Of a stretch of 64,000 bases of DNA, positions 41,552-52,057 are shown one piece after another. The notes under the pieces were generated by a model. The model was not told where the DNA came from, searched no databases, and saw only the letters and a list, made by a program, of their open reading frames with translations. This DNA comes from Rhodovulum bhavnagarense (GTDB taxonomy: Bacteria > Pseudomonadota > Alphaproteobacteria > Rhodobacterales > Rhodobacteraceae). Position 1 is the first letter of the stretch. Each line of letters opens with the position of its first letter. Position numbers and translations under genes: made by a program. The stretch is taken from NCBI RefSeq assembly GCF_004343505.1, contig NZ_SLXU01000002.1, positions 124,001 to 188,000 of the forward strand, given 5' to 3'.

Positions 41552-42241
41552 ATGCCGATCACGACTTGCGTTTTCGATGCCTATGGGACGTTGTTCGATG
41601 TGACGGCCGCCGCCCGCCAAGCCGCGGCCGAGCCTGGCAACGGCGCGCTGAACGACGTCTGGCCGCGCCTGGCCGAGGATTGGCGGCGCAAGCAACTTGA
41701 ATATACCTGGCTCAGGGCCATTGCCGGGGCCCATGCCGATTTCTGGCAGGTAACCCAGGACGGGCTGGATTGGGCGATGGAGGCCGCGGGGCTGACCTGT
41801 GCGGAGGGATTGCGCGCACGGCTTCTGGCGCTTTACCGCGAATTGTCTGCCTTTCCCGAAGTGCATGACGTTCTTTCGGCGCTGAAGCAATCGGGCAAAG
41901 CCACGGCGATCCTGTCGAACGGATCGCCCGCCATGCTGTCCGAAGCGGTGGCCTCGGCGGCGATCGGCGATCTGTTGGACGATGTTCTCTCGGTCGAGGA
42001 TGTCGGAATCTACAAACCGCACTCCTCGGTCTACGATCTCGTGGGGAAAAGATTTCTCGTAGAAAGATCGCAGGTCCTGTTCGTGTCGTCAAATGGCTGG
42101 GACGCGGCGGCGGCGACCGGCTATGGGTTCACGACCGCCTGGGTCAACCGCGCGGGGGCGCCGGTGGACCGGATGCCATGGCGCCCGGCCCATATCATGG
42201 GTGATCTGACCGGCATTCCAGCGCTTGCAGAGGCGGGCTGA
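41552..42241 (+). CDS. Haloacid dehalogenase type II-like HAD hydrolase
   Basis: HAD-superfamily hydrolase, 229 residues, of the L-2-haloacid dehalogenase group. The nucleophile motif is VFDAYGTLFDV near residues 7-17, motif II AILSNGSPAML, the Lys motif GIYKPHSSVYDL, and the last motif FVSSNGWDAAAATGYGFTTA. These match (S)-2-haloacid dehalogenases, which displace halide from 2-halo acids. GGAGG lies before the ATG at 41552. Its stop overlaps the next gene by one base (TGATG). It is the first of seven coupled genes, so its true substrate may be an intermediate of that pathway. Confidence 0.9.
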   Translation: MPITTCVFDAYGTLFDVTAAARQAAAEPGNGALNDVWPRLAEDWRRKQLEYTWLRAIAGAHADFWQVTQDGLDWAMEAAGLTCAEGLRARLLALYRELSAFPEVHDVLSALKQSGKATAILSNGSPAMLSEAVASAAIGDLLDDVLSVEDVGIYKPHSSVYDLVGKRFLVERSQVLFVSSNGWDAAAATGYGFTTAWVNRAGAPVDRMPWRPAHIMGDLTGIPALAEAG

Positions 42242-43074
42242 TGCCGCGTTTTGCCGCCGATGACGGGGTAATGCTGGCCTATGACGACTGCGGGCAGGGC
42301 CCGGTGCTGTTATGCCTTGCGGGGCTTACCCGGAACATGGATGATTTCGAACCGGTGGTGGACCGGTTCGCCGGTCTTGCGCGCATCCTGCGGCTGGACA
42401 TGCGGGGGCGGGGCGGTTCCGACCACGATCACGATTTCATGAATTACAACCTGATCCGCGAGGGGCGCGATGCGCTGGCGCTTCTGGATCATCTGGGGAT
42501 CGCGCGGGCGGCGATCCTGGGCACCTCGCGCGGGGGGTTGGTTGCCATGACGCTGGCGGCCGGTCACAGAGACCGGTTGAGTGGTGTCTGCCTGAACGAT
42601 ATCGGCCCGATGATCGAGCCGCGCGGGCTGGCTTACATCATGGATTACCTCGGCAAACTGCCCGGCTATGCCGATTACGACGATGCGGCTGACAAGCTGT
42701 CGGTTGGCATGGCGGGGCGCTTTGTCGGTGTGTCGTGGACCCAGTGGCGCGATCATGCAAGGCGGCTGTGGATGGAAACGCCCGAGGGGTTGGCGCTGCG
42801 CTATGATCCCCGGTTACGGCACGCGGTGGCCGAGGCGTCGGCAGCGGATGCCATACCCGACCTGTGGCCGCTGTTCGAGGCGCTGAAGGATTTGCCGGTG
42901 GCGCTGATCCGGGGAGAAAATTCCGACATCCTGTCGGCCGCGACCGCCGCGGAGATGTGCCGCCGTCGTCCCGACATGATCTATGCCGAGGTGCCTGGTC
43001 GTGGGCATGTGCCCTTTCTGGACGAGCCCGAGGCGGTCACGGCGCTGGGGCTGTTTCTGGAGCTGGTGCAATGA
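42241..43074 (+). CDS. Alpha/beta hydrolase (operon gene 2)
   Basis: Serine hydrolase fold, 277 residues. The oxyanion region is PVLLCLAGLTRNMDDFEPVV, with LRLDMRGRGGSDHD and the nucleophile elbow GTSRGGLVAMTLA (Ser near residue 96). The catalytic acid candidate is in LIRGENSDILS, and the His is in VPGRGHVPFLDEP. The hydrolysed ester, lactone or ring bond cannot be named. It overlaps the HAD gene by one base and the PLP enzyme gene by four (ATGA). The pair HAD-hydrolase recurs in Rhodobacterales, from memory rather than from a search. Confidence 0.88.
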   Translation: MPRFAADDGVMLAYDDCGQGPVLLCLAGLTRNMDDFEPVVDRFAGLARILRLDMRGRGGSDHDHDFMNYNLIREGRDALALLDHLGIARAAILGTSRGGLVAMTLAAGHRDRLSGVCLNDIGPMIEPRGLAYIMDYLGKLPGYADYDDAADKLSVGMAGRFVGVSWTQWRDHARRLWMETPEGLALRYDPRLRHAVAEASAADAIPDLWPLFEALKDLPVALIRGENSDILSAATAAEMCRRRPDMIYAEVPGRGHVPFLDEPEAVTALGLFLELVQ

Positions 43075-44051
43075 ACATCGAGATGATCGAGGCCGCCGCG
43101 GCGCGGCTGGCGGGCCATGCGCGGGTGACGCCGTTATTGTCCTCGCCCTTTCTGGACGAGCTTGCAGGGCGGCGCGTCCTGGTCAAACCCGAATGCCTGC
43201 AACAGACCGGCAGTTTCAAGTTCCGCGGCGGCTGGGCGGCGGTTTCGGCCCTGCCCGATGACATCCGCGCCCGCGGCGTGATCGCGTTTTCCTCGGGAAA
43301 CCATGCCCAGGGCGTGGCCCGTGCCGCGGCCCTGCACGGAGTGCCCTCGGTGATCGTGATGCCCTCGGACGCGCCGCGGCTCAAGATCGCAAATACCCGT
43401 GCGCTGGGCGCCGAGGTGGTGCTGTATGATCGCGCAAGCGAGGATCGCGATGCGCTTGGCGCCCGGCTGGCCGAGGAACGCGGCCTGACCCTGATCAAGC
43501 CCTTTGACGAACCGCAGGTGATCGCGGGGCAGGGGACATGCGGGTTGGAAATCGCCGTGCAGGCGGCCCAGGAGGGCGTGAGCGAGGCCGATGTGCTGAT
43601 CCCCTGCGGCGGCGGCGGGCTGACCTCGGGCATCGCGCTGGCGCTTGCGGCCCGTGCGCCGGGGCTGATCGCGCGGCCGGTGGAACCGGAGGGGTTCGAC
43701 GACACCGCCCGCTCGCTGGCCTCCGGCCGGATCGAGCGGAATGCGCGGCTGGCAGGCTCGATCTGCGATGCGATCATCACGCCCAGTCCCGGAGAGGTCA
43801 CCTTTCCAATCATGCATCGGCTAGGTGGACCCGGCCTTGTCGTGACAGAAGAGGAGGCCCTGCGGGCGATGGCGGCGGCCTTTCTGCGGCTCAAGATCGT
43901 TCTGGAACCGGGCGGCGCGGTGGCTTTGGCGGCCGCGCTCTATCACCCCGCGGCCGTGGCCGGTGAGGCGGTGATCGCCGTGGCCTCGGGCGGGAATGTT
44001 GACCCCGACCTGTTTCGAATGGCGCTTGATCGCTATGGGGAGGACGCATGA
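43071..44051 (+). CDS. Threonine/serine dehydratase-like PLP enzyme
   Basis: Fold-type II PLP enzyme, 326 residues. The PLP lysine is in QTGSFKFRGGWAAV (about residue 49), the substrate loop is SSGNHAQGVA, and the phosphate-binding glycine loop is IPCGGGGLTSGIALAL. It lacks an ACT-like regulatory domain, so it resembles catabolic threonine dehydratase, serine racemase or EutB-type hydroxyectoine enzymes. A variant position is the lone EDN-less pocket, so the amino-acid substrate is not predictable. Starts at an ATGA overlap with the upstream hydrolase and ends in an ATGA overlap with the EEP gene. Confidence 0.88.
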   Translation: MNIEMIEAAAARLAGHARVTPLLSSPFLDELAGRRVLVKPECLQQTGSFKFRGGWAAVSALPDDIRARGVIAFSSGNHAQGVARAAALHGVPSVIVMPSDAPRLKIANTRALGAEVVLYDRASEDRDALGARLAEERGLTLIKPFDEPQVIAGQGTCGLEIAVQAAQEGVSEADVLIPCGGGGLTSGIALALAARAPGLIARPVEPEGFDDTARSLASGRIERNARLAGSICDAIITPSPGEVTFPIMHRLGGPGLVVTEEEALRAMAAAFLRLKIVLEPGGAVALAAALYHPAAVAGEAVIAVASGGNVDPDLFRMALDRYGEDA

Positions 44052-45256
44052 AAACTTTCACGATTGCAACATTCAACGTGAAGAACCTGATTGGCGCCAA
44101 GCAGGAATATTATCTTTTCGAACAATATAGTTCCGAAGAATATGCTTGGAAAGAAGACTGGTTGGCCGAACAACTGACCCGCATGAATCCCGACATTGTC
44201 GGGTTCCAGGAGATTTTCGAGGCCGAACCGTTGCAAAAGGTGATCGCGGGCGCTGACGAACGGGGGCTGGCCTCGAATGCCGCCTCTATCCCGGAGGGAC
44301 GGAAGGGCATTGGCCGCAAGGCTATCTTTCGCAAGCTCGAATATGATCCCTATGGCGATGCTGCGCTCGCCTTTGCGCCCAACCTGTCCGATAGCGGGCC
44401 GGGTGAACGGCGGCCGGGGGTTGCGATCCTGTCGCGTTTCGGGTTCGTTGACGACCCCCAGGCGATCCAGCTGCTCGACCCGCCGATCGACATTCCCTTT
44501 CATCACCTTGGCGGGGGCGAGGCGGGCAGCTATCAGATCAAGCGGCTGTCGCGCCCAATCCTGAAGGTGCGCATTCCCTTGGGCGAGCATGTCGTCACGG
44601 TGTTCAATACCCACCTGAAATCCAAGCTGGGTGAATTCGTCCGTCCCCACGGTGCGCGTTTCTCACCCGAGGTGGACCTGTTGAACTACGACGCTCCGGG
44701 CCGCGCGATGGGTTTTTTGCGCGCGTCGGTGCGCCGGATGGCCGAGGCCTGGGTGCTGCGCAAGCTGGTGCTGGACGAGTTGGATCAGGGCCGCCCGGTG
44801 ATGGTGCTGGGCGATCTGAACGACAATGAACACTCTGTCACGCTGGAAATCATCGAGGGCGAGATGCCCTTCGTGAACTACGAGTGGATGCGCCGCCATG
44901 ACGCCCGCGATGAGGCCGACCGCTATAGCCCGGTCGAGGCCGCACAGATCAGGGAGAGCATAGAGAGGGTGCGCCTGCATTCTGCCGAAAAGCTGTTTGT
45001 CCGCAAAAGTTTGCGTGACATGGTCTACACGGCGTCCTTCGGCGGCGTGTTCGAGTCGCTTGACACCATCCTGATGTCGCGTCACTTCCATCCCGATTGG
45101 CCCGGACGCATCGCCGAGATGGATTATTTCAGCGTTTTCAACGACCACATAACCGATGGCTCGCATCCCGAGGCGCCCTATAACAAGCTGGCCTCGGATC
45201 ACGGGCAGGTCATGGCGCATATGCGCATGCGTGCAGCGCCGGAGGGTCGCCAATGA
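44048..45256 (+). CDS. Endonuclease/exonuclease/phosphatase (EEP) family protein
   Basis: Metal-dependent phosphoesterase fold, 402 residues. The N-terminal strand is TFTIATFNVKNLIG, the metal Glu lies in VGFQEIFEAEPL, the catalytic His in VFNTHLKSKLGEF, and the Asp/Asn in MVLGDLNDNEHSVTL. The C-terminal His is in KLASDHGQVMAHM. No signal peptide is present, so it is cytoplasmic. The family spans DNases, sphingomyelinases and inositol phosphatases. Its place inside a small-molecule operon, coupled by ATGA overlaps on both sides, argues for a phosphoester intermediate rather than nucleic acid, but that is inference. Confidence 0.87.
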   Translation: MKTFTIATFNVKNLIGAKQEYYLFEQYSSEEYAWKEDWLAEQLTRMNPDIVGFQEIFEAEPLQKVIAGADERGLASNAASIPEGRKGIGRKAIFRKLEYDPYGDAALAFAPNLSDSGPGERRPGVAILSRFGFVDDPQAIQLLDPPIDIPFHHLGGGEAGSYQIKRLSRPILKVRIPLGEHVVTVFNTHLKSKLGEFVRPHGARFSPEVDLLNYDAPGRAMGFLRASVRRMAEAWVLRKLVLDELDQGRPVMVLGDLNDNEHSVTLEIIEGEMPFVNYEWMRRHDARDEADRYSPVEAAQIRESIERVRLHSAEKLFVRKSLRDMVYTASFGGVFESLDTILMSRHFHPDWPGRIAEMDYFSVFNDHITDGSHPEAPYNKLASDHGQVMAHMRMRAAPEGRQ

Positions 45257-46041
45257 GAATTGCCGGTCTGGGCGACGTTGCGCTGCATTACCGCGACGAG
45301 GGCGATCCGGATGGCCCGGCGGTGGTTTTTGCCAATTCACTGGGTACAGACCTGCGGCTGTGGGATGATCTTGTGCCGCTTTTGGTCGGCGGTCTGAGGA
45401 TCATCCGTTACGACAAGCGGGGTCATGGGCTGTCGTCCTGCCCGGCCGGTCCCTATTCCATGGGCACCCTTGTTCGCGATGCCGAACGATTGCTGGATTA
45501 CCTGGGCGTGCGCGATTGCGTTTTCGTTGGTCTTTCAATCGGCGGCATGATCGCGCAGGGATTGGCGGTCAAGCGGCTGGACCTGGTGCGCGCGATGGTG
45601 ATCTCGAATACCGCCGCCAAGATCGGCGCCAAGGAGGTCTGGGCCGCCCGCATGGCCGCCGTCCGCGAAGGCGGGATCGAGGCCTTGGCCGACGCCACGA
45701 TGGAGCGCTGGTTCTCCCGCCCCTTCCGCGAAAGCCCCGATTGCGTGCTCTGGCGCAACATGCTGACCCGCCAGCCGGCAGAAGGCTACCTGGGTTGCTG
45801 TGCTGCGATCTCGGGTACCGATTTCTATACGCCGACCGCGGGTTTGACCTTGCCCACGCTGGCGATCGCGGGGTCCGAGGACGGGTCGACCCCGCCCGAC
45901 CTGGTGCGCGAAACCGCCGAGCTGGTGAAGGGATCGCGCTTTCACCTGGTCCGGGGGGCGGGGCATCTGCCTTGCGTCGAGAAACCGGGTGAATACGCCG
46001 AGGTGCTGAACGGCTTTCTAAAGGATATCGCTCATGTCTGA
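45253..46041 (+). CDS. Alpha/beta hydrolase, 3-oxoadipate enol-lactonase-like
   Basis: Hydrolase of 262 residues resembling PcaD. It has VVFANSLGTDLRLWDDLVPLL, YDKRGHGLS, the nucleophile elbow GLSIGGMIAQGLA (Ser near residue 96), AGSEDGSTPPDLV and the His in VRGAGHLPCVEKP. PcaD opens the enol-lactone of the beta-ketoadipate pathway, but no other pca gene is in the window. It may therefore act on a different lactone or ester. It overlaps the EEP gene by four bases and the next hydrolase by eight. Confidence 0.85.
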   Translation: MRIAGLGDVALHYRDEGDPDGPAVVFANSLGTDLRLWDDLVPLLVGGLRIIRYDKRGHGLSSCPAGPYSMGTLVRDAERLLDYLGVRDCVFVGLSIGGMIAQGLAVKRLDLVRAMVISNTAAKIGAKEVWAARMAAVREGGIEALADATMERWFSRPFRESPDCVLWRNMLTRQPAEGYLGCCAAISGTDFYTPTAGLTLPTLAIAGSEDGSTPPDLVRETAELVKGSRFHLVRGAGHLPCVEKPGEYAEVLNGFLKDIAHV

Positions 46042-46756
46042 GGGACCGATCACCGAATTCCTGTTGATCCACGGGTCCAACCACGGGGCGTGGTGCTGGC
46101 GCGATGTGCTGCCGCCCCTGGCCGCTGCGGGCCATGCCGCGCGCGCCATCGACCTGCCCGGCGCGGGTCTGGACGGCACGCCCCTGGACGCGGTGACGCT
46201 GGACAGCTACCGCGATGCGGTGCTGGGCGCGCTGCATGGACGGACGATCCTGGTGGGCCATTCCCTGGGTGGCGTCACGATCACCGCCGCCGCGGCTGCG
46301 GCCCCCGAAAAGGTGGCCGCGCTGGTCTATCTGTGCGCCTGGGCGCCGCGGCCGGGCGACAGCGCCCGCGACCTGCGCGCGCGTTACGGCTGTGAGGCGC
46401 TGATGGGCGCGATGCGCCGCAGCCCGGATCGCCTGACCACCAGTTTCGCGGACGAGACGCTGGAGGAGCTTTTCTACCACGACTGCCCGCCGGGCACCGC
46501 GGATTATGCCCGCGATCATCTGTCCGCGCAGCCCATTGCGCCGGGCATGGCGCCGGCCCTTGCCGTACCGGACAGCGTGCCGCGCCACTACATCCGCTGT
46601 ACCGGCGACCGGATCATCCCGCCCGAGGCGCAGGCCGACATGACACGAGACTGGCCTGCCGATCATGTCCATGACCTGGCCACCGGACATTCGCCCTTTT
46701 TTGCCGACCCCGTTGGGCTGGCAGAGCTGCTGACAAGGATTGCCGAGAAACCATGA
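46034..46756 (+). CDS. Alpha/beta hydrolase, EstC/methyl-esterase-like
   Basis: Small serine hydrolase of 240 residues. It has FLLIHGSNHGAWCWRDVLPP, the nucleophile elbow LVGHSLGGVTITAAAA (Ser near residue 78), YIRCTGDRIIPPEAQAD with the acid residue, and LATGHSPFFADP with the His. The HGSNHGAWCW start is typical of the plant hydroxynitrile lyase/methyl-salicylate esterase and bacterial EstC group. It overlaps both neighbours (8 and 4 bases). It is the third alpha/beta hydrolase of the same operon. Confidence 0.87.
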   Translation: MSEGPITEFLLIHGSNHGAWCWRDVLPPLAAAGHAARAIDLPGAGLDGTPLDAVTLDSYRDAVLGALHGRTILVGHSLGGVTITAAAAAAPEKVAALVYLCAWAPRPGDSARDLRARYGCEALMGAMRRSPDRLTTSFADETLEELFYHDCPPGTADYARDHLSAQPIAPGMAPALAVPDSVPRHYIRCTGDRIIPPEAQADMTRDWPADHVHDLATGHSPFFADPVGLAELLTRIAEKP

Positions 46757-47583
46757 CCAAACCCTGCATCATCTGTGTCGCCATCACCGGGTCCGTCCCT
46801 CGCAAGCAGGACAACCCGGCGGTTCCGATCACCATCGCCGAACAGGTCGAAAGCGTGCATGAAAGCTTCGAGGCCGGGGCCTCTATCGCGCATTGCCATG
46901 TGCGGGAAGAGGACGGCACACCCACCTCTGATCCCGACCGTTTTGCCCGGCTGATGGAGGGGATTCACAAACATTGCCCCGGCATGATCGTGCAATTGTC
47001 CACCGGGGGCCGGTCTGGTGCGGGGGCGGCGCGCGGGGGGATGCTGCCGTTGCGGCCCGACATGGCCTCGCTCTCTGTAGGGTCCAACAATTTTCCGACA
47101 CGAGTCTACGAGAACCCGCCCGAACTGGTGGATTGGCTGGCCTCGGAAATGCAGAAATACGACATCAAGCCCGAGATCGAGGCGTTTGACCTGAGCCACA
47201 TTTTCCAGGCGGTCAAGCTGAGCGAGGACGGGCGTTTGACCAAGCCCCTCTATGTTCAGTTCGTGATGGGGGTCAAGAACGCGATGCCCGCGGACAAGCC
47301 CAGCTTCGACTTCTATGTCGAGACATTGAAACGGATCGCGCCGGATGCGGAATGGTGCGGCGCCGGGATCGGCCGCCACCAGGTCGAGGTGAACGAATGG
47401 GCCATCGCCGCGGGCGGTCATACCCGCACCGGGCTGGAGGATAACGTGCGCTGGGATCGTGAAACCCTGGCGCCCTCGAACGCGGCGCTGGTCCGGCGCG
47501 CGGTCGAGATATGCCAGAAACACGAACGTCCCGTCGCCACCTGGGCCCAGGCACGCGATATGCTGGGGTTGCGTCCCGGCTGA
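46753..47583 (+). CDS. BKACE family beta-keto acid cleavage enzyme (3-keto-5-aminohexanoate cleavage-like)
   Basis: Zinc enzyme that condenses a beta-keto acid with acetyl-CoA to release acetoacetate and a new CoA ester. The 276-residue protein has CVAITGSVPRK, the zinc His pair in GASIAHCHVREEDG, MIVQLSTGGRSG, and the terminal EWAIAAGGHTRTGLEDN carrying the Glu ligand. Members act on 3-keto-5-aminohexanoate, dehydrocarnitine or other keto acids, and the side-chain pocket decides which. Coupled by ATGA to the upstream hydrolase, it is the last of seven overlapping genes and gives the operon a carbon-exit step into central metabolism. Confidence 0.93.
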   Translation: MTKPCIICVAITGSVPRKQDNPAVPITIAEQVESVHESFEAGASIAHCHVREEDGTPTSDPDRFARLMEGIHKHCPGMIVQLSTGGRSGAGAARGGMLPLRPDMASLSVGSNNFPTRVYENPPELVDWLASEMQKYDIKPEIEAFDLSHIFQAVKLSEDGRLTKPLYVQFVMGVKNAMPADKPSFDFYVETLKRIAPDAEWCGAGIGRHQVEVNEWAIAAGGHTRTGLEDNVRWDRETLAPSNAALVRRAVEICQKHERPVATWAQARDMLGLRPG

Positions 47584-47654
47584 GGTGTGAAAGGGGTTTG
47601 ATGCCGGGCCAAGGGCGGTCTAAGCCTTTGGCACCACCGCATCGGGATCACCCC

Positions 47655-48875
47655 ATGAAAGAACCGCATAACCGACTTCCGATCATCTTTATCCTCGTTA
47701 CCCTGGTGCTGGATGCGATCGGTATCGGGCTGATCTTGCCGGTCATGCCGGACCTGATCCACGATATCGAGGGCGTGGATGTCTCTCGGGCCGCGGCCTG
47801 GGGCGGCATCTTGATGACTTGTTTCGCGGTGATGCAATTCCTGTGCGGGCCGTTGCTGGGGAACCTGTCCGACCGTTATGGGCGGCGCCCGGTGTTGTTG
47901 CTGTCGCTGGCCACCATGGCGCTGGATTACGTCGTGATGGCGCTGGCGGGGTCGATCTGGCTGCTATTGGCGGCTCGGATCGTGGGTGGAGTGACCGCCT
48001 CGACCCAAGCCACGGCCAGCGCGTTCATCGCAGATATCTCGCGCCCCGAAGACAAGGCCGCGCGCTTTGGGATGGTTGGCGCGTCCTTTGGGATCGGCTT
48101 TGTGATCGGGCCGCTGATCGGCGGGTTCCTGGGGGAACTGGGCCCGCGCGCGCCGTTCTGGGCCGCCGCGGCGCTGGCCATGGCGAACCTCGTCCTTGGA
48201 TATTTCGTGCTGCCCGAAACCGTGACCGACCGTATCCGCCGCCCCTTCGAGTGGCGCCGCGCCAATCCGTTGGGGGCGTTTCGGTCGATGGGGCGTTTGC
48301 CCGGCGTTCGCCCCTTGATGTTGCTGTTCTTCCTATATGAGTTCGCGATGTTCATCTATCCCGCGATCTGGGCCTATTTCACGCAATACCGGTTTGGCTG
48401 GTCCGCTGGCACGATCGGCGTCTCGCTGGCGCTGTTCGGGATCGGGGTCGCGGTGGTGCAAGGCGGGCTGATCCGGGTCTATCTGCGGGTTCTGGGCGAG
48501 CGCAACATGGTGTGGTTCGGGCTGACCTATAATTTTGTGGCCTTCCTCGTTATCGGTTTCGTTGGTAACTCGCTGGCGGTGCTTTTGATGACGCCGTTGA
48601 TCGCGCTGGGCGCGGTGGTTACGCCGGGTCTGCTTGGCATCATGTCAAAGGCCGCGGGCGACGATCGGCAGGGCGAATTGCAGGGCGCGGTCAGTTCGCT
48701 GCGCTCGGTCGCGATGATCCTCTCTCCGCTGGTCATGACGCAGATCTTTGCCCTGTTTACCGGCGAGAGCGCGGGGGTCGTTCTGCCCGGTGCGCCCTTC
48801 GTGCTGGCGGCGATAACGATGCTGGTCTGCGCGACGGTGTTCGTCGCCCCGCGCGCGCGCGCCGCACAGACCTGA
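47655..48875 (+). CDS. MFS transporter, TetA/DHA1-like
   Basis: Twelve-helix major facilitator, 406 residues. Its N-terminus is LPIIFILVTLVLDAIGIGLI with the DHA1 motif D-x-x-G-x-G-x-x-x-P-V-x-P. Motif A is GNLSDRYGRRPVLLLS between helices 2 and 3, and motif C is GASFGIGFVIGPLIGG. These mark a drug or metabolite exporter of the tetracycline-efflux group. Resistance to tetracycline is not implied. It begins 71 bp after the BKACE gene with the same direction, so it may be co-transcribed as the transport step. It ends 15 bp from the convergent TRAP permease gene. Confidence 0.9.
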   Translation: MKEPHNRLPIIFILVTLVLDAIGIGLILPVMPDLIHDIEGVDVSRAAAWGGILMTCFAVMQFLCGPLLGNLSDRYGRRPVLLLSLATMALDYVVMALAGSIWLLLAARIVGGVTASTQATASAFIADISRPEDKAARFGMVGASFGIGFVIGPLIGGFLGELGPRAPFWAAAALAMANLVLGYFVLPETVTDRIRRPFEWRRANPLGAFRSMGRLPGVRPLMLLFFLYEFAMFIYPAIWAYFTQYRFGWSAGTIGVSLALFGIGVAVVQGGLIRVYLRVLGERNMVWFGLTYNFVAFLVIGFVGNSLAVLLMTPLIALGAVVTPGLLGIMSKAAGDDRQGELQGAVSSLRSVAMILSPLVMTQIFALFTGESAGVVLPGAPFVLAAITMLVCATVFVAPRARAAQT

Positions 48876-48890
48876 GCCGACACAGGCGCC

Positions 48891-50225
48891 CTAACGCAGA
48901 AGGTCCGTCAGCAAAAGCGACAGCGCCGGCACGGCGGCGATGACGCCAAGGCCCAGCACGCTTGCCACCAGGAACGGGAACGCGCCGCGCGCGATGCGCT
49001 CGATCGACAGGCGTGTGACGTTGGCCGCCACGTAAAGGTTGATGCCCACCGGCGGCGTGAACAGCCCGATGGCGAGGTTGACCATCACCACCACGCCGAA
49101 CCACACCGGGTCCCAGCCCATTTCGCGCATCACCGGCAGGAAGATCGGCAGCGAGATGAACATCACCGTGATCGCGTCCATGAACATGCCCGCGACCAGC
49201 AGCACCAGCATGATGACCAGCAGGATCACCCACTGGTTTTCGCTGAGGCCCAGAAGCGCCTGGGAATAGGTGCCGACCAGGTCCTCGACCGTGACCACCC
49301 AGCCGAACAGGCCGGCATAGGCCACCACCAGCATCACCACCGCCGACGACGCGGCCGCATCGGCCAGCGCCTCGTAAAGGCCGCGCAGCGTCAGCGTGCG
49401 ATAGGCCAGCGCCCCCACCCCCAGCGCATAGACGGTGGCGACCAGTGCCGCCTCGGTGGGCGTGAAGATGCCGGAATAGATCCCGCCGAGGATCACCATC
49501 GGCGTGAGCAGGCCCCAGAACGCCTCGCGGAAGGCCAGCCAGAGGCGGCGGCCATAGGGCAGCCCGGCATGAGGCGCGGGGCTGAGCGCGTCGAGCCCGG
49601 CCCGGCCATGCTCGGCCCCGCCGCGCCGCGCGAAGGGCAACGTGGCCAGCATGGTCAGCCCCATGAACAGGCCCGGCAGGATCGCCGCGATGAACAGCTG
49701 CGAGATCGAGGTTTCGGCGATCACGCCATAGATCACTAGACCGATGGAGGGCGGGATGACGATGGACAGCGCCGCACCCGTGCAGACCAGCCCCGCGGCA
49801 TAGGCGCGGTCATAGCCGTCCTCCTCCATGCCCTTGACGATCATCGGGCCGATGGCCGCGACCGAGGCCGGGCCCGACCCGCTGACCGCGCCCCAGAACA
49901 GGCAGACCACCGTGCCGACAACCCCCATGCCGCCCGGCAGCGTCCCGATCAGAACGCGGAAGAACCGGATCATCCGTTCCGCGATGCCCAGCGTGCCCAT
50001 CAGCGTGCCAGCGAGGATGAAGAACGGGATGGCCAGCAGCGAGAACCTGGTGACGCCCGCGGAAATCAGGTCACCGGCCAGATCGAGGCCAAAGCCGATC
50101 TGCCACATCGCATAGATCGCAGACAGGCCCAGCGAGAACGCCACCGGCACCCGGCAGGCCAGCAGGAGGAAGAACAGGATCACCATCTCGGTGCCCGCGC
50201 CAAGGCCGGGGATCAGGTCAGACAT
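48891..50225 (-). CDS. dctM: TRAP transporter large permease (DctM)
   Basis: Twelve-helix membrane subunit of a tripartite ATP-independent periplasmic transporter, 444 residues. Family marks are LLLACRVPVAFSLGLSAI near the start, LLAIPFFILAGTLMG, FWGAVSGSGPASVAAIGPM, SIVIPPSIGLVIYGV and LFTPPVGINLYVAANV. It uses a sodium gradient to import an organic acid captured by DctP. It starts 8 bp before the end of dctQ, so the two are coupled. Its 3' end meets the MFS gene with only 15 bp between. Confidence 0.95.
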   Translation of the reverse strand: MSDLIPGLGAGTEMVILFFLLLACRVPVAFSLGLSAIYAMWQIGFGLDLAGDLISAGVTRFSLLAIPFFILAGTLMGTLGIAERMIRFFRVLIGTLPGGMGVVGTVVCLFWGAVSGSGPASVAAIGPMIVKGMEEDGYDRAYAAGLVCTGAALSIVIPPSIGLVIYGVIAETSISQLFIAAILPGLFMGLTMLATLPFARRGGAEHGRAGLDALSPAPHAGLPYGRRLWLAFREAFWGLLTPMVILGGIYSGIFTPTEAALVATVYALGVGALAYRTLTLRGLYEALADAAASSAVVMLVVAYAGLFGWVVTVEDLVGTYSQALLGLSENQWVILLVIMLVLLVAGMFMDAITVMFISLPIFLPVMREMGWDPVWFGVVVMVNLAIGLFTPPVGINLYVAANVTRLSIERIARGAFPFLVASVLGLGVIAAVPALSLLLTDLLR

Positions 50226-50709
50226 GGGGCAAATCGCCGGACGGGCCGCCGGGGGTGCGCAAGGTGACCCAGGCGTGTTGCAGGTAGCGGACCAGGATCA
50301 GCGCAAAGCCGAAGGGCACCGCCGCCTGATAATACCACGCCGGCAGCCCCAGCGCGTAGGACCGGATGCCGCTGGACAGCTGGTTGGTCAGCGTGACCCA
50401 GGAAAACCAAGCCGACAGCGCCAGAAGCAGCACCGACAGCGCCGTGGCCAGCACGAAAAGCGGCGTGCGCAGGGGGCGCGGCAACAGGTCGTGGACCAGC
50501 GTCACCGCCAGATGTTCGCCCCGGCGCGCGGCGATGGCGGCGCCGAAGACGGTCAGCAGCAGGAACCCGTTGGTCAAGAGTTCCTCGGTGGCGGCCAGCG
50601 AATAGTTGGTGCCATAGCGCACCACCACGTTGGCGAACCCGATCGCCGTCATGCCCAGGAACAGCACGGCGCAGACGATCTTTTCCGCCTCGTCCAGAAG
50701 GAAACGCAT
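50218..50709 (-). CDS. dctQ: TRAP transporter small permease (DctQ)
   Basis: Four-helix subunit bridging DctM in the inner membrane, 163 residues. It begins MRFLLDEAEKIVCAVLFLGM. It contains the family pattern TEELLTNGFLLLTVFGAAIA followed by RGEHLAV, and a last segment LGLPAWYYQAAVPFGFALIL. The ATG at 50709 was chosen; the open frame continues upstream through the dctP-dctQ hairpin. It overlaps dctM by 8 bp. Confidence 0.93.
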   Translation of the reverse strand: MRFLLDEAEKIVCAVLFLGMTAIGFANVVVRYGTNYSLAATEELLTNGFLLLTVFGAAIAARRGEHLAVTLVHDLLPRPLRTPLFVLATALSVLLLALSAWFSWVTLTNQLSSGIRSYALGLPAWYYQAAVPFGFALILVRYLQHAWVTLRTPGGPSGDLPHV

Positions 50710-50737
50710 GGGAAGAGCCTCGCTGTGGCGCGCAGGA

Positions 50738-50768
50738 AACAGGCCCGCGCGGGATGCGCGGGCCTGTT
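50738..50768. terminator. Stem-loop between dctP and dctQ
   Basis: AACAGGCCCGCGC and GCGCGGGCCTGTT form a perfect 13-base stem with a 5-base loop in the 71-bp dctP-dctQ gap. Such hairpins just after the binding-protein gene typically stabilise its message or attenuate the permease genes, giving more DctP than DctQM. No U-tract is seen. Confidence 0.8.
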
Positions 50769-50780
50769 CGATGGCGGGCG

Positions 50781-51785
50781 TTACTGCGCCGCGGCGATGG
50801 CGGACTGGAACGCCGCCACGATCTCGGGGCCGACCTTGGCCGCCCATTCGTCGAAGGCGGGCTTGGTCGCTTCGCGGAAGGCCTGAAGTTCCTCGGGGGT
50901 GGGTTCGTAGACCTCCATCCCCTTCTCGGTCAGGAAGGCGATGCCGTTCGCGGTGCCCTCGCGCGTGATCTGGCGCTGGTAGGCCATGGCCTCTTGGGCG
51001 GCGGTGCGCAGTTTTTCCCGCGTTTCCGCGTCATAGCTGTCCCACTTGGCCTTGGAGATGCCGAGGAAGATCGGGTCGTAGGAATAGTGCCAGGTCGTGA
51101 TGTATTTCTGCATCTCGTAGACCTGCTGCGGGATGATGACCGCGCCGATCGGGTTTTCCTGCCCGTCGACCACGCCCTGTTGCAGCGCGGTCAGGGTTTC
51201 CGACCATTGCATCTGCTGCGGGTTGGCGCCCAGCGCGTTCATCACGTCGATATACATCGGCCCCGCGACGCGCATGTTCAGGCCCTTCATGTCCTCGGGC
51301 GAGGTGATCGGGCGGACGTTGTTGGTGACCTCGCGAAAGCCGTTCTCGCCCCAGGCCAAGACGACGATGCCCTTGTCCAGAAGGATATCGGCCATCATCT
51401 GGCCGGGTTCGCCCTGGGTGGTCGCGTCGACCTGGTCATAGGACGCATAGAGATAGGGCAGTGAGAACACCGCCATTTCGGGCACCAGCGGCGTGACGTT
51501 GATCGCCGAGGTCAGCACCAGATCCAGCGCGCCGCGGCCGATCATCTCGGCCTGTTTCATCTGGTCGCCGCCCGCAAGCTGGGCATTGGGGAACACGCGC
51601 ACATCGATTTCGCCGCCGGTTGCCTCGGCGATAAGCTCGTTGAACTTTTCGGCGCCCTGGTGCCACGTCGTCGTGTCGCCCACATTATGCGACAGGCGCA
51701 GCGTCTCGGCCGAGGCCGCCCCGACCATCATCGCGCCCGCGACCATCGCGGCAAGGGCGGCTCGGCCCAGCTTTTCAACTTTCAT
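50781..51785 (-). CDS. dctP: TRAP transporter substrate-binding protein (DctP)
   Basis: Periplasmic binding protein of 334 residues. The signal peptide is MKVEKLGRAALAAMVAGAMM plus an Ala-rich end, cleaving near ASA-ETLRLSH. Family motifs include FPNAQLAGGDQMKQAEMIGR, the carboxylate-binding Arg in GLNMRVAGPMY (about residue 170), and LTALQQGVVDGQENP. It captures an organic acid for DctQM; the ligand is unknown. RBS GGAGGAAA lies before the ATG at 51785. It heads a dctP-dctQ-dctM operon, divergent from the phosphomannomutase gene. Confidence 0.94.
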   Translation of the reverse strand: MKVEKLGRAALAAMVAGAMMVGAASAETLRLSHNVGDTTTWHQGAEKFNELIAEATGGEIDVRVFPNAQLAGGDQMKQAEMIGRGALDLVLTSAINVTPLVPEMAVFSLPYLYASYDQVDATTQGEPGQMMADILLDKGIVVLAWGENGFREVTNNVRPITSPEDMKGLNMRVAGPMYIDVMNALGANPQQMQWSETLTALQQGVVDGQENPIGAVIIPQQVYEMQKYITTWHYSYDPIFLGISKAKWDSYDAETREKLRTAAQEAMAYQRQITREGTANGIAFLTEKGMEVYEPTPEELQAFREATKPAFDEWAAKVGPEIVAAFQSAIAAAQ

Positions 51786-52057
51786 CGGTTTCCTCCGGTG
51801 TTTCGCGTGCCCGTTCGGGGCTGTTATTGGGCCGTTCCCGGCCGGCCCGCGCCCATCATCAAAACCAGAACCGCACGCCGTCGACAAGGCGCGATGCGCG
51901 GCTGCGACGCAGAGACCGGGCATGAAAGGGAGCCATCTGCCGCGTGTGGACAGGTTATTGTCGCCGCAGGGTTGCAAGGGCAATCTGGTTTGGCACAGGC
52001 TCGGGCGGTCATATTGCAATGGAATGCCCCGTCTTGAACAGGCTTGAGGTTTTTTCG

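Follow-up and report, generated by a model that had tools for sequence, protein, structure and literature searches.

In Methylobacterium, excerpts of PMC8963497 report that nearly every strain of that study has a DUF849/BKACE gene flanked by pcaG and pcaB, in operons holding no pcaI, pcaJ or pcaF, and cite Bastard 2014 for beta-ketoadipate; excerpts of PMC12379598 agree on this pathway variant, and the excerpted text of PMC12542667 gives a counter-case, a Methylobacterium island that encodes PcaIJ and PcaF. A plasmid operon of Limimaricola reads pcaQ-pobA-pcaCHG-BKACE-pcaD-pcaB. Here we describe a gene row in Rhodovulum bhavnagarense (GCF_004343505.1; genome label G000), found in a 64,000-nt stretch (NZ_SLXU01000002.1, positions 124,001-188,000; hereafter the window), whose PcaD and BKACE belong to the same families and of which a full version exists in the congeners G006 and G013. 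Relative to that version and to the known variant, the window locus lacks pobA, pcaC, pcaH, pcaG and pcaB (pobA and pcaB were sought around the locus only), has no pcaQ match, as is the case throughout the Rhodovulum regions compared, and is fused to four other genes encoding a HAD-type dehalogenase (HAD), an alpha/beta hydrolase (ABH1), a pyridoxal phosphate (PLP)-dependent enzyme and an EEP-superfamily protein. We propose that the row is probably a composite operon, in which an unassigned Rhodobacteraceae module has been joined by deletion to the end of a pob/pca operon whose remnant is pcaD-ABH3-BKACE. The features are as follows.

41552..42241, + strand: HAD type II, L-2-haloacid dehalogenase family by TIGR01428 and alignment to 1jud and 2no4; first gene of the module
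42241..43074, + strand: ABH1, alpha/beta hydrolase (PF12697, PF00561)
43071..44051, + strand: PLP-dependent ammonia-lyase, threonine/serine/3-hydroxyaspartate dehydratase-like (PF00291)
44048..45256, + strand: EEP-superfamily phosphoesterase/nuclease (PF03372)
45253..46041, + strand: PcaD, predicted 3-oxoadipate enol-lactonase (TIGR02427; 2xua)
46034..46041, + strand: overlap of pcaD stop and ABH3 start, ATGTCTGA (junction comparison with congeners)
46034..46756, + strand: ABH3, esterase of plant-methylesterase / hydroxynitrile-lyase / pyrethroid-hydrolase type (PF12697; solved relatives)
46753..47583, + strand: BKACE, predicted 3-oxoadipate:acetyl-CoA acetyltransferase type (NF053568; 3chv, 3fa5, 3no5)
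47655..48875, + strand: MFS efflux-type transporter (Tet(A/B/C)-family model, below cut-off)

The gene order is thus HAD-ABH1-PLP-EEP-PcaD-ABH3-BKACE, followed by MFS. A previous reading made from the letters of the window alone (the sequence-only reading) had described seven genes overlapping by 1-8 bases with an MFS transporter after them, and both points were borne out: by open reading frame coordinates, the seven consecutive plus-strand genes (41552-47583) overlap successively by 1, 4, 4, 4, 8 and 4 bases, and the MFS gene follows without overlap, after a gap of 71 bases (start 47655) or 17 bases (start 47601). The domain names given there likewise agree with Pfam and NCBIfam. Judged from the spacing, the seven genes are likely to form one operon with translational coupling. 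Between 40600 and 49200 we found a single sigma-70-like site, on the minus strand (1.7 in shuffles), and four terminator-like sites (6.2 in shuffles). Tight spacing is derived at two junctions, namely pcaD/ABH3, where G006 and G013 hold pcaC-pcaH-pcaG, and EEP/PcaD, where they hold pobA.

PcaD passes TIGR02427 (319.5 bits, cut-off 255.85) and its closest solved relative is the 3-oxoadipate enol-lactonase 2xua; BKACE passes NF053568, the model for 3-oxoadipate:acetyl-CoA acetyltransferase (503.9 bits, cut-off 350), with 3chv, 3fa5 and 3no5 as nearest solved chains. These matches agree with the BKACE chemistry and the enol-lactonase-like fifth gene suggested previously. By family, PcaD would convert 3-oxoadipate enol-lactone to 3-oxoadipate, and BKACE would convert 3-oxoadipate and acetyl-CoA to succinyl-CoA and acetoacetate, thereby replacing PcaIJ and PcaF. 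The sequence-only reading knew of no pathway for these steps and called the whole operon, BKACE ending included, unassigned; the upstream part does lack an assignment, but the ending, PcaD then BKACE, is how the beta-ketoadipate pathway finishes in its BKACE variant. A BKACE whose substrate had been left open thus has a specific, testable prediction, 3-oxoadipate. Its fold family is shared with Kce (2y7d), the BKACE of lysine fermentation (3-keto-5-aminohexanoate cleavage), and H47, H49 and E229 are retained in the alignment, at the positions of two histidines and a glutamate of Kce that we take to be metal ligands. The window BKACE differs in having Val15 at the position of a Kce glutamate that presumably binds the substrate amino group. 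We rejected assignment to the Kce type on the score against the Kce model NF052387 (260.5 bits, cut-off 382), and the common GenBank name, 3-keto-5-aminohexanoate cleavage protein, looks misleading for this protein. Genome-wide, one CoA-transferase of the PcaI/ScoA family scores above its cut-off, ~1.5 kb before the window (G000:C2:121821-122468); it could activate acetoacetate, and the family also holds PcaI.

Elsewhere, BKACE lies beside pca or cat genes in all four plasmid records opened among 91 matched, one of which (H17) was chosen because pcaD was visible in its listing. In Limimaricola, Ruegeria pomeroyi and Paracoccus versutus the gene lies within pcaQ-pobA-pcaCHG operons, and in Rhodobacter CZR27 it adjoins pcaD in a ben/cat cluster. 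The 4-hydroxybenzoate pathway of Roseovarius nubinhibens, as given in excerpts of PMC12442348, is similar in that pcaB lies outside the main pca cluster and a 3-oxoacid CoA-transferase is required for normal 4-hydroxybenzoate use, and different in its PcaIJ-type ending with exchangeable thiolases. According to the same excerpts, loss of PcaF alone has no effect on 4-hydroxybenzoate use; the main text does not contain the words BKACE, DUF or acetoacetate, though Bastard 2014 is cited there for an alternative fate of beta-ketoadipate. A BKACE route in R. nubinhibens, which would call for a 3-oxoacid CoA-transferase and an acetoacetyl-CoA thiolase but not for PcaF, would explain both the need for the CoA-transferase and the dispensable PcaF.

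Comparison with relatives locates the deletion. The locus of G006 and G013 reads HAD-ABH1-PLP-EEP-pobA-pcaD-pcaC-pcaH-pcaG-ABH3-BKACE-pcaB-MFS, and G018, from another genus, has nearly the same full locus without a recognised ABH1 or ABH3. The same order, whole or in part, is present in 16/16 genus genomes looked at (window included), and we rejected a chance row of genes on this basis; MFS closes the locus in each of the 16 Rhodovulum regions compared. Partly shortened versions also occur: G002 retains pcaC, G011 retains pcaB and G010 a pcaB fragment. At the other end, EEP was not seen in G010 and G015, its match in G001 covers residues 3-67 only and holds a stop, and HAD was not seen in G015. 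On our reading, a pob/pca operon originally stood at the PcaD end, the window lineage deleted pobA, pcaC-pcaH-pcaG and pcaB, and this deletion packed the remaining genes into an overlapping row.

The pcaD/ABH3 junction retains a scar. In G006, G013 and G002, pcaC has its start within the stop of pcaD (ATGTCTGA). Four genomes, that of the window and G012, G003 and G011, instead open the ABH3 frame with the codon at this position (ATGTCTGA; ATGCCTGA in G003). Both G003 and G011 have kept the former ABH3 start as well, so that either may be the true one there. The window genome and G012 have the same leader of five residues and, after it, ATC at the place of the old ATG retained in G003; the deletion is therefore older than the divergence of the two species. 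The junctions differ between lineages and the UvrB tree lacks resolution at its base; pcaHG may have been lost once in an ancestor or several times.

Loss of ring cleavage extends beyond the locus. No match to the intradiol dioxygenase family PF00775 was found in G000 (99.78% complete), and the best PcaC match genome-wide reaches 53.7 bits (cut-off 155.7); by these two measures the genome does not encode a complete protocatechuate beta-ketoadipate pathway. PF00775 is missing from 13/16 genus genomes, G000 among them; it is found in the locus in G006 and G013 and elsewhere in G011, and PcaC is above cut-off in four of the 16 (G002, G006, G011, G013). BKACE at E 1e-100 or better is present in 269/390 Rhodobacterales genomes. 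Taking the first 80 of these in listed order from outside the genus, PF00775 accompanies BKACE in 73, versus 3/14 congeners with a full-length BKACE (Fisher p 1.3e-7, kinship ignored), the latter set including G001 at 1.6e-98, just outside the threshold. Most likely, PcaD, ABH3 and BKACE now act on a lactone or 3-oxo acid with an origin other than ortho ring cleavage, and the main alternative is that pcaCHG is supplied in trans in other strains.

The kept genes are under purifying selection in the window lineage after the deletion. Between the window genome and G012, the ratio of non-synonymous to synonymous change (omega) for BKACE is 0.025 [0.009-0.046], based on 8.5 non-synonymous and 77.5 synonymous changes, which is the lowest of the nine genes compared and below that of UvrB (0.088); PcaD (0.092 [0.050-0.149]) and ABH3 (0.086 [0.043-0.155]) are near UvrB, and the other five genes range from 0.107 to 0.199. 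In the full-pathway pair G006-G013, omega is 0.079 for BKACE and 0.129 for PcaD; because these values exceed those of the G000-G012 pair, absence of ring cleavage has not relaxed the constraint. BKACE also has an omega of 0.085 between G004 and G007, both without PF00775. From the low omegas, the kept genes are therefore not drifting in the window lineage, with constraint varying among lineages. In a large part of one genus, selection has thus maintained the final steps of a catabolic pathway whose initial steps were deleted.

The upstream genes recur as a unit of their own. Among EEP loci from the best 80 of 306 relatives, a sample biased to close relatives, PLP is present in 77, HAD in 74, ABH1 in 74 and PcaD in 69, MFS in 47, ABH3 in 35, pcaB in 29 and BKACE in 10. 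HAD-ABH1-PLP-EEP and PcaD occur all together in 64/80. All seven genes occur together in 6/80, five from Rhodovulum and the sixth (L106) with the entire pca set. Because seven-gene loci are few and the one outside the genus has the full pca set, BKACE travels with pca and not with HAD-ABH1-PLP-EEP. The sequence-only reading had proposed co-occurrence of the seven genes as the test of a single pathway, in which a halide or phosphate is removed, an ester or lactone is opened, ammonia is lost and a keto acid is cleaved. The tight overlaps, the retained dehalogenase motifs of HAD and the dehydratase type of the PLP enzyme speak for such a route, but the genes are rarely together, and BKACE lies among pca genes wherever the operon is full, in G006, G013 and G018. 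We consider one seven-step route very improbable; a single operon is likely.

Shared ancestry of gene order alone does not seem to account for the first four genes. All four are present in 64/69 loci with enough flank; among the 17 of these that show no FKBP neighbour, 14 still hold all four genes and 12 retain PcaD, and on this basis we rejected synteny inertia alone. The linkage of the first four genes thus seems to be more than inherited position, although FKBP, expected to play no part, is itself retained in 52 of the 69. To relate the module to ring cleavage we used 50 genomes (of 51 chosen) behind the EEP loci, in which, by our own score-based typing, 24 have a pcaH-type PF00775 protein, 13 another type only and 13 none. 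PcaD stands at the locus in 22/24, 13/13 and 11/13 of these, respectively (11/13 vs 22/24, Fisher p 0.60), and pcaB in 13/24, 3/13 and 1/13 (1/13 vs 13/24, p 0.011), both tests ignoring kinship; ABH3 does so in 13, 8 and 3 genomes. Ten PcaDs were scanned of the 11 from PF00775-less genomes, and all ten pass TIGR02427. In a tree, the locus PcaDs form one clade, separate from three PcaDs of other pca/cat operons, a grouping to be read cautiously because the branches are long. The analysis thus brings to light a five-gene Rhodobacteraceae module, with a PcaD retained independently of ring cleavage. The module is common to many, not all, Rhodobacteraceae and has no assigned pathway, and in one open library we found no paper combining its enzyme types in the Rhodobacter-group literature. 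It is conceivable, if unlikely, that the module is a pathway of its own, in which PcaD opens a lactone derived from something other than aromatic ring cleavage, and that Rhodovulum recruited ABH3 and BKACE into it from a dead pca operon; if true, this would constitute a new catabolic route ending in acetoacetate and a CoA ester.

Several observations weigh against the composite operon as we read it. BKACE is absent from G003, split in two frames in G005 and diverged in G001 (59%, below cut-off), and PcaD is absent from G009; omega reaches 0.212 for PcaD and 0.303 for ABH3 between G004 and G007, and 0.489 for BKACE between G014 and G001. Some congeners, then, are losing the pca remnant. These losses and the high BKACE omega of G014-G001 would be expected if the remnant were a relic, decaying and without a present role; for the window lineage we hold this to be quite improbable, given the omegas of the G000-G012 pair after their shared deletion. 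EEP, strong (E below 1e-100) in 13/16 genus genomes, is patchy beyond them: it is strong in only 3/21 genomes sampled among the family's other genera, and in a class sample of 289 genomes, for which the kinship of most EEP-less members is not listed, it reaches E 1e-40 or better in four, all from the same family as the window.

A further point on this side is that G011 (R. robiginosum) carries pobA-pcaC-pcaH-pcaG on contig C51 and pcaD-ABH3-BKACE-pcaB at this locus (L031, L146), and supply in trans is thus real in one species. The Ruegeria pomeroyi megaplasmid, with pcaQ-pobA-pcaCHG-BKACE and neither pcaD nor pcaB among the annotated neighbours, points the same way. Protocatechuate might on these grounds still be degraded in the window species, by a pathway whose pobA-pcaCHG part lies on another replicon absent from the assembly or the strain. 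The same loss or gap would, however, be needed many times to account for the 13 genomes without PF00775; pcaB is also gone from the window locus; and the second pca set of G011 has limited identity to the G006 set (pcaC 56%, pcaH 70%), which suggests later acquisition. We hold a split pathway in the window species to be unlikely.

Finally, NF053568 is passed by 6/6 scanned BKACEs, of nine fetched from PF00775-less genomes, that lie away from pcaD, pcaH, pcaG and pcaB. Because BKACEs away from pca genes pass too, passing the model does not fix the substrate, and the 3-oxoadipate predicted for the window BKACE is to be read as a family-level assignment. The nine regions, from seven genomes without PF00775, have no pcaD, pcaH, pcaG or pcaB neighbours; one has a 35% pcaC-like neighbour and one a 40% partial pcaQ-like neighbour, and inspection of the neighbours by eye revealed no common alternative pathway. 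Three BKACEs of this kind lie at L156 9087-9914, L157 8565-9395 and L158 8977-9807; those of L156 and L157 pass NF053568, and it is possible that the three have other substrates within this subgroup.

The remaining proteins of the row are assigned with differing precision. HAD passes TIGR01428 (194.4 bits, cut-off 125.4) and aligns near full length to 1jud and 2no4 with conserved motifs that we take to be catalytic; by family criteria it is a predicted L-2-haloacid dehalogenase of type II. ABH1 reaches no NCBIfam cut-off. The best NCBIfam match of the PLP protein is threo-3-hydroxyaspartate ammonia-lyase (NF005454), at 298 bits and thus below its cut-off of 452. EEP matches PF03372 (44.7 bits, cut-off 24.5) and no NCBIfam family; its AlphaFold2 model (pLDDT 79.8) has CNOT6L, nocturnin, TDP2 and ExoIII as nearest solved folds, with TM-scores by query length of 0.40-0.49, so that the fold search on this model reaches the superfamily level only and indicates no substrate. 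ABH3, which sits between pcaG and BKACE in G006, is of the esterase/hydroxynitrile-lyase family and may free an acid from an ester. MFS scores 334.9 bits against the Tet(A/B/C)-family model, below the cut-off of 475.

We note that ABH1 is 51-53% identical to the window protein in G009, G006, G002 and G010 (L034, L038, L039, L147) and 73-84% in the other 11 Rhodovulum, and by sequence comparison the former look like in-place replacements by a distant homologue. ABH3 likewise looks replaced, with 36% identity to the window protein in G013 and 36-39% across G013 and G010. One EEP locus, L086, comes from a record titled Nocardioides marinus and groups with Leisingera and Phaeobacter; the assembly is likely mislabelled or mixed. 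Convergent to the operon, at window positions 48891-51788 on the minus strand, lies a TRAP transporter with DctM and DctP above their cut-offs and an unscored small gene between them; we rejected it as part of the system, as it has no match in 16 homologous regions, 13 of them from the genus.

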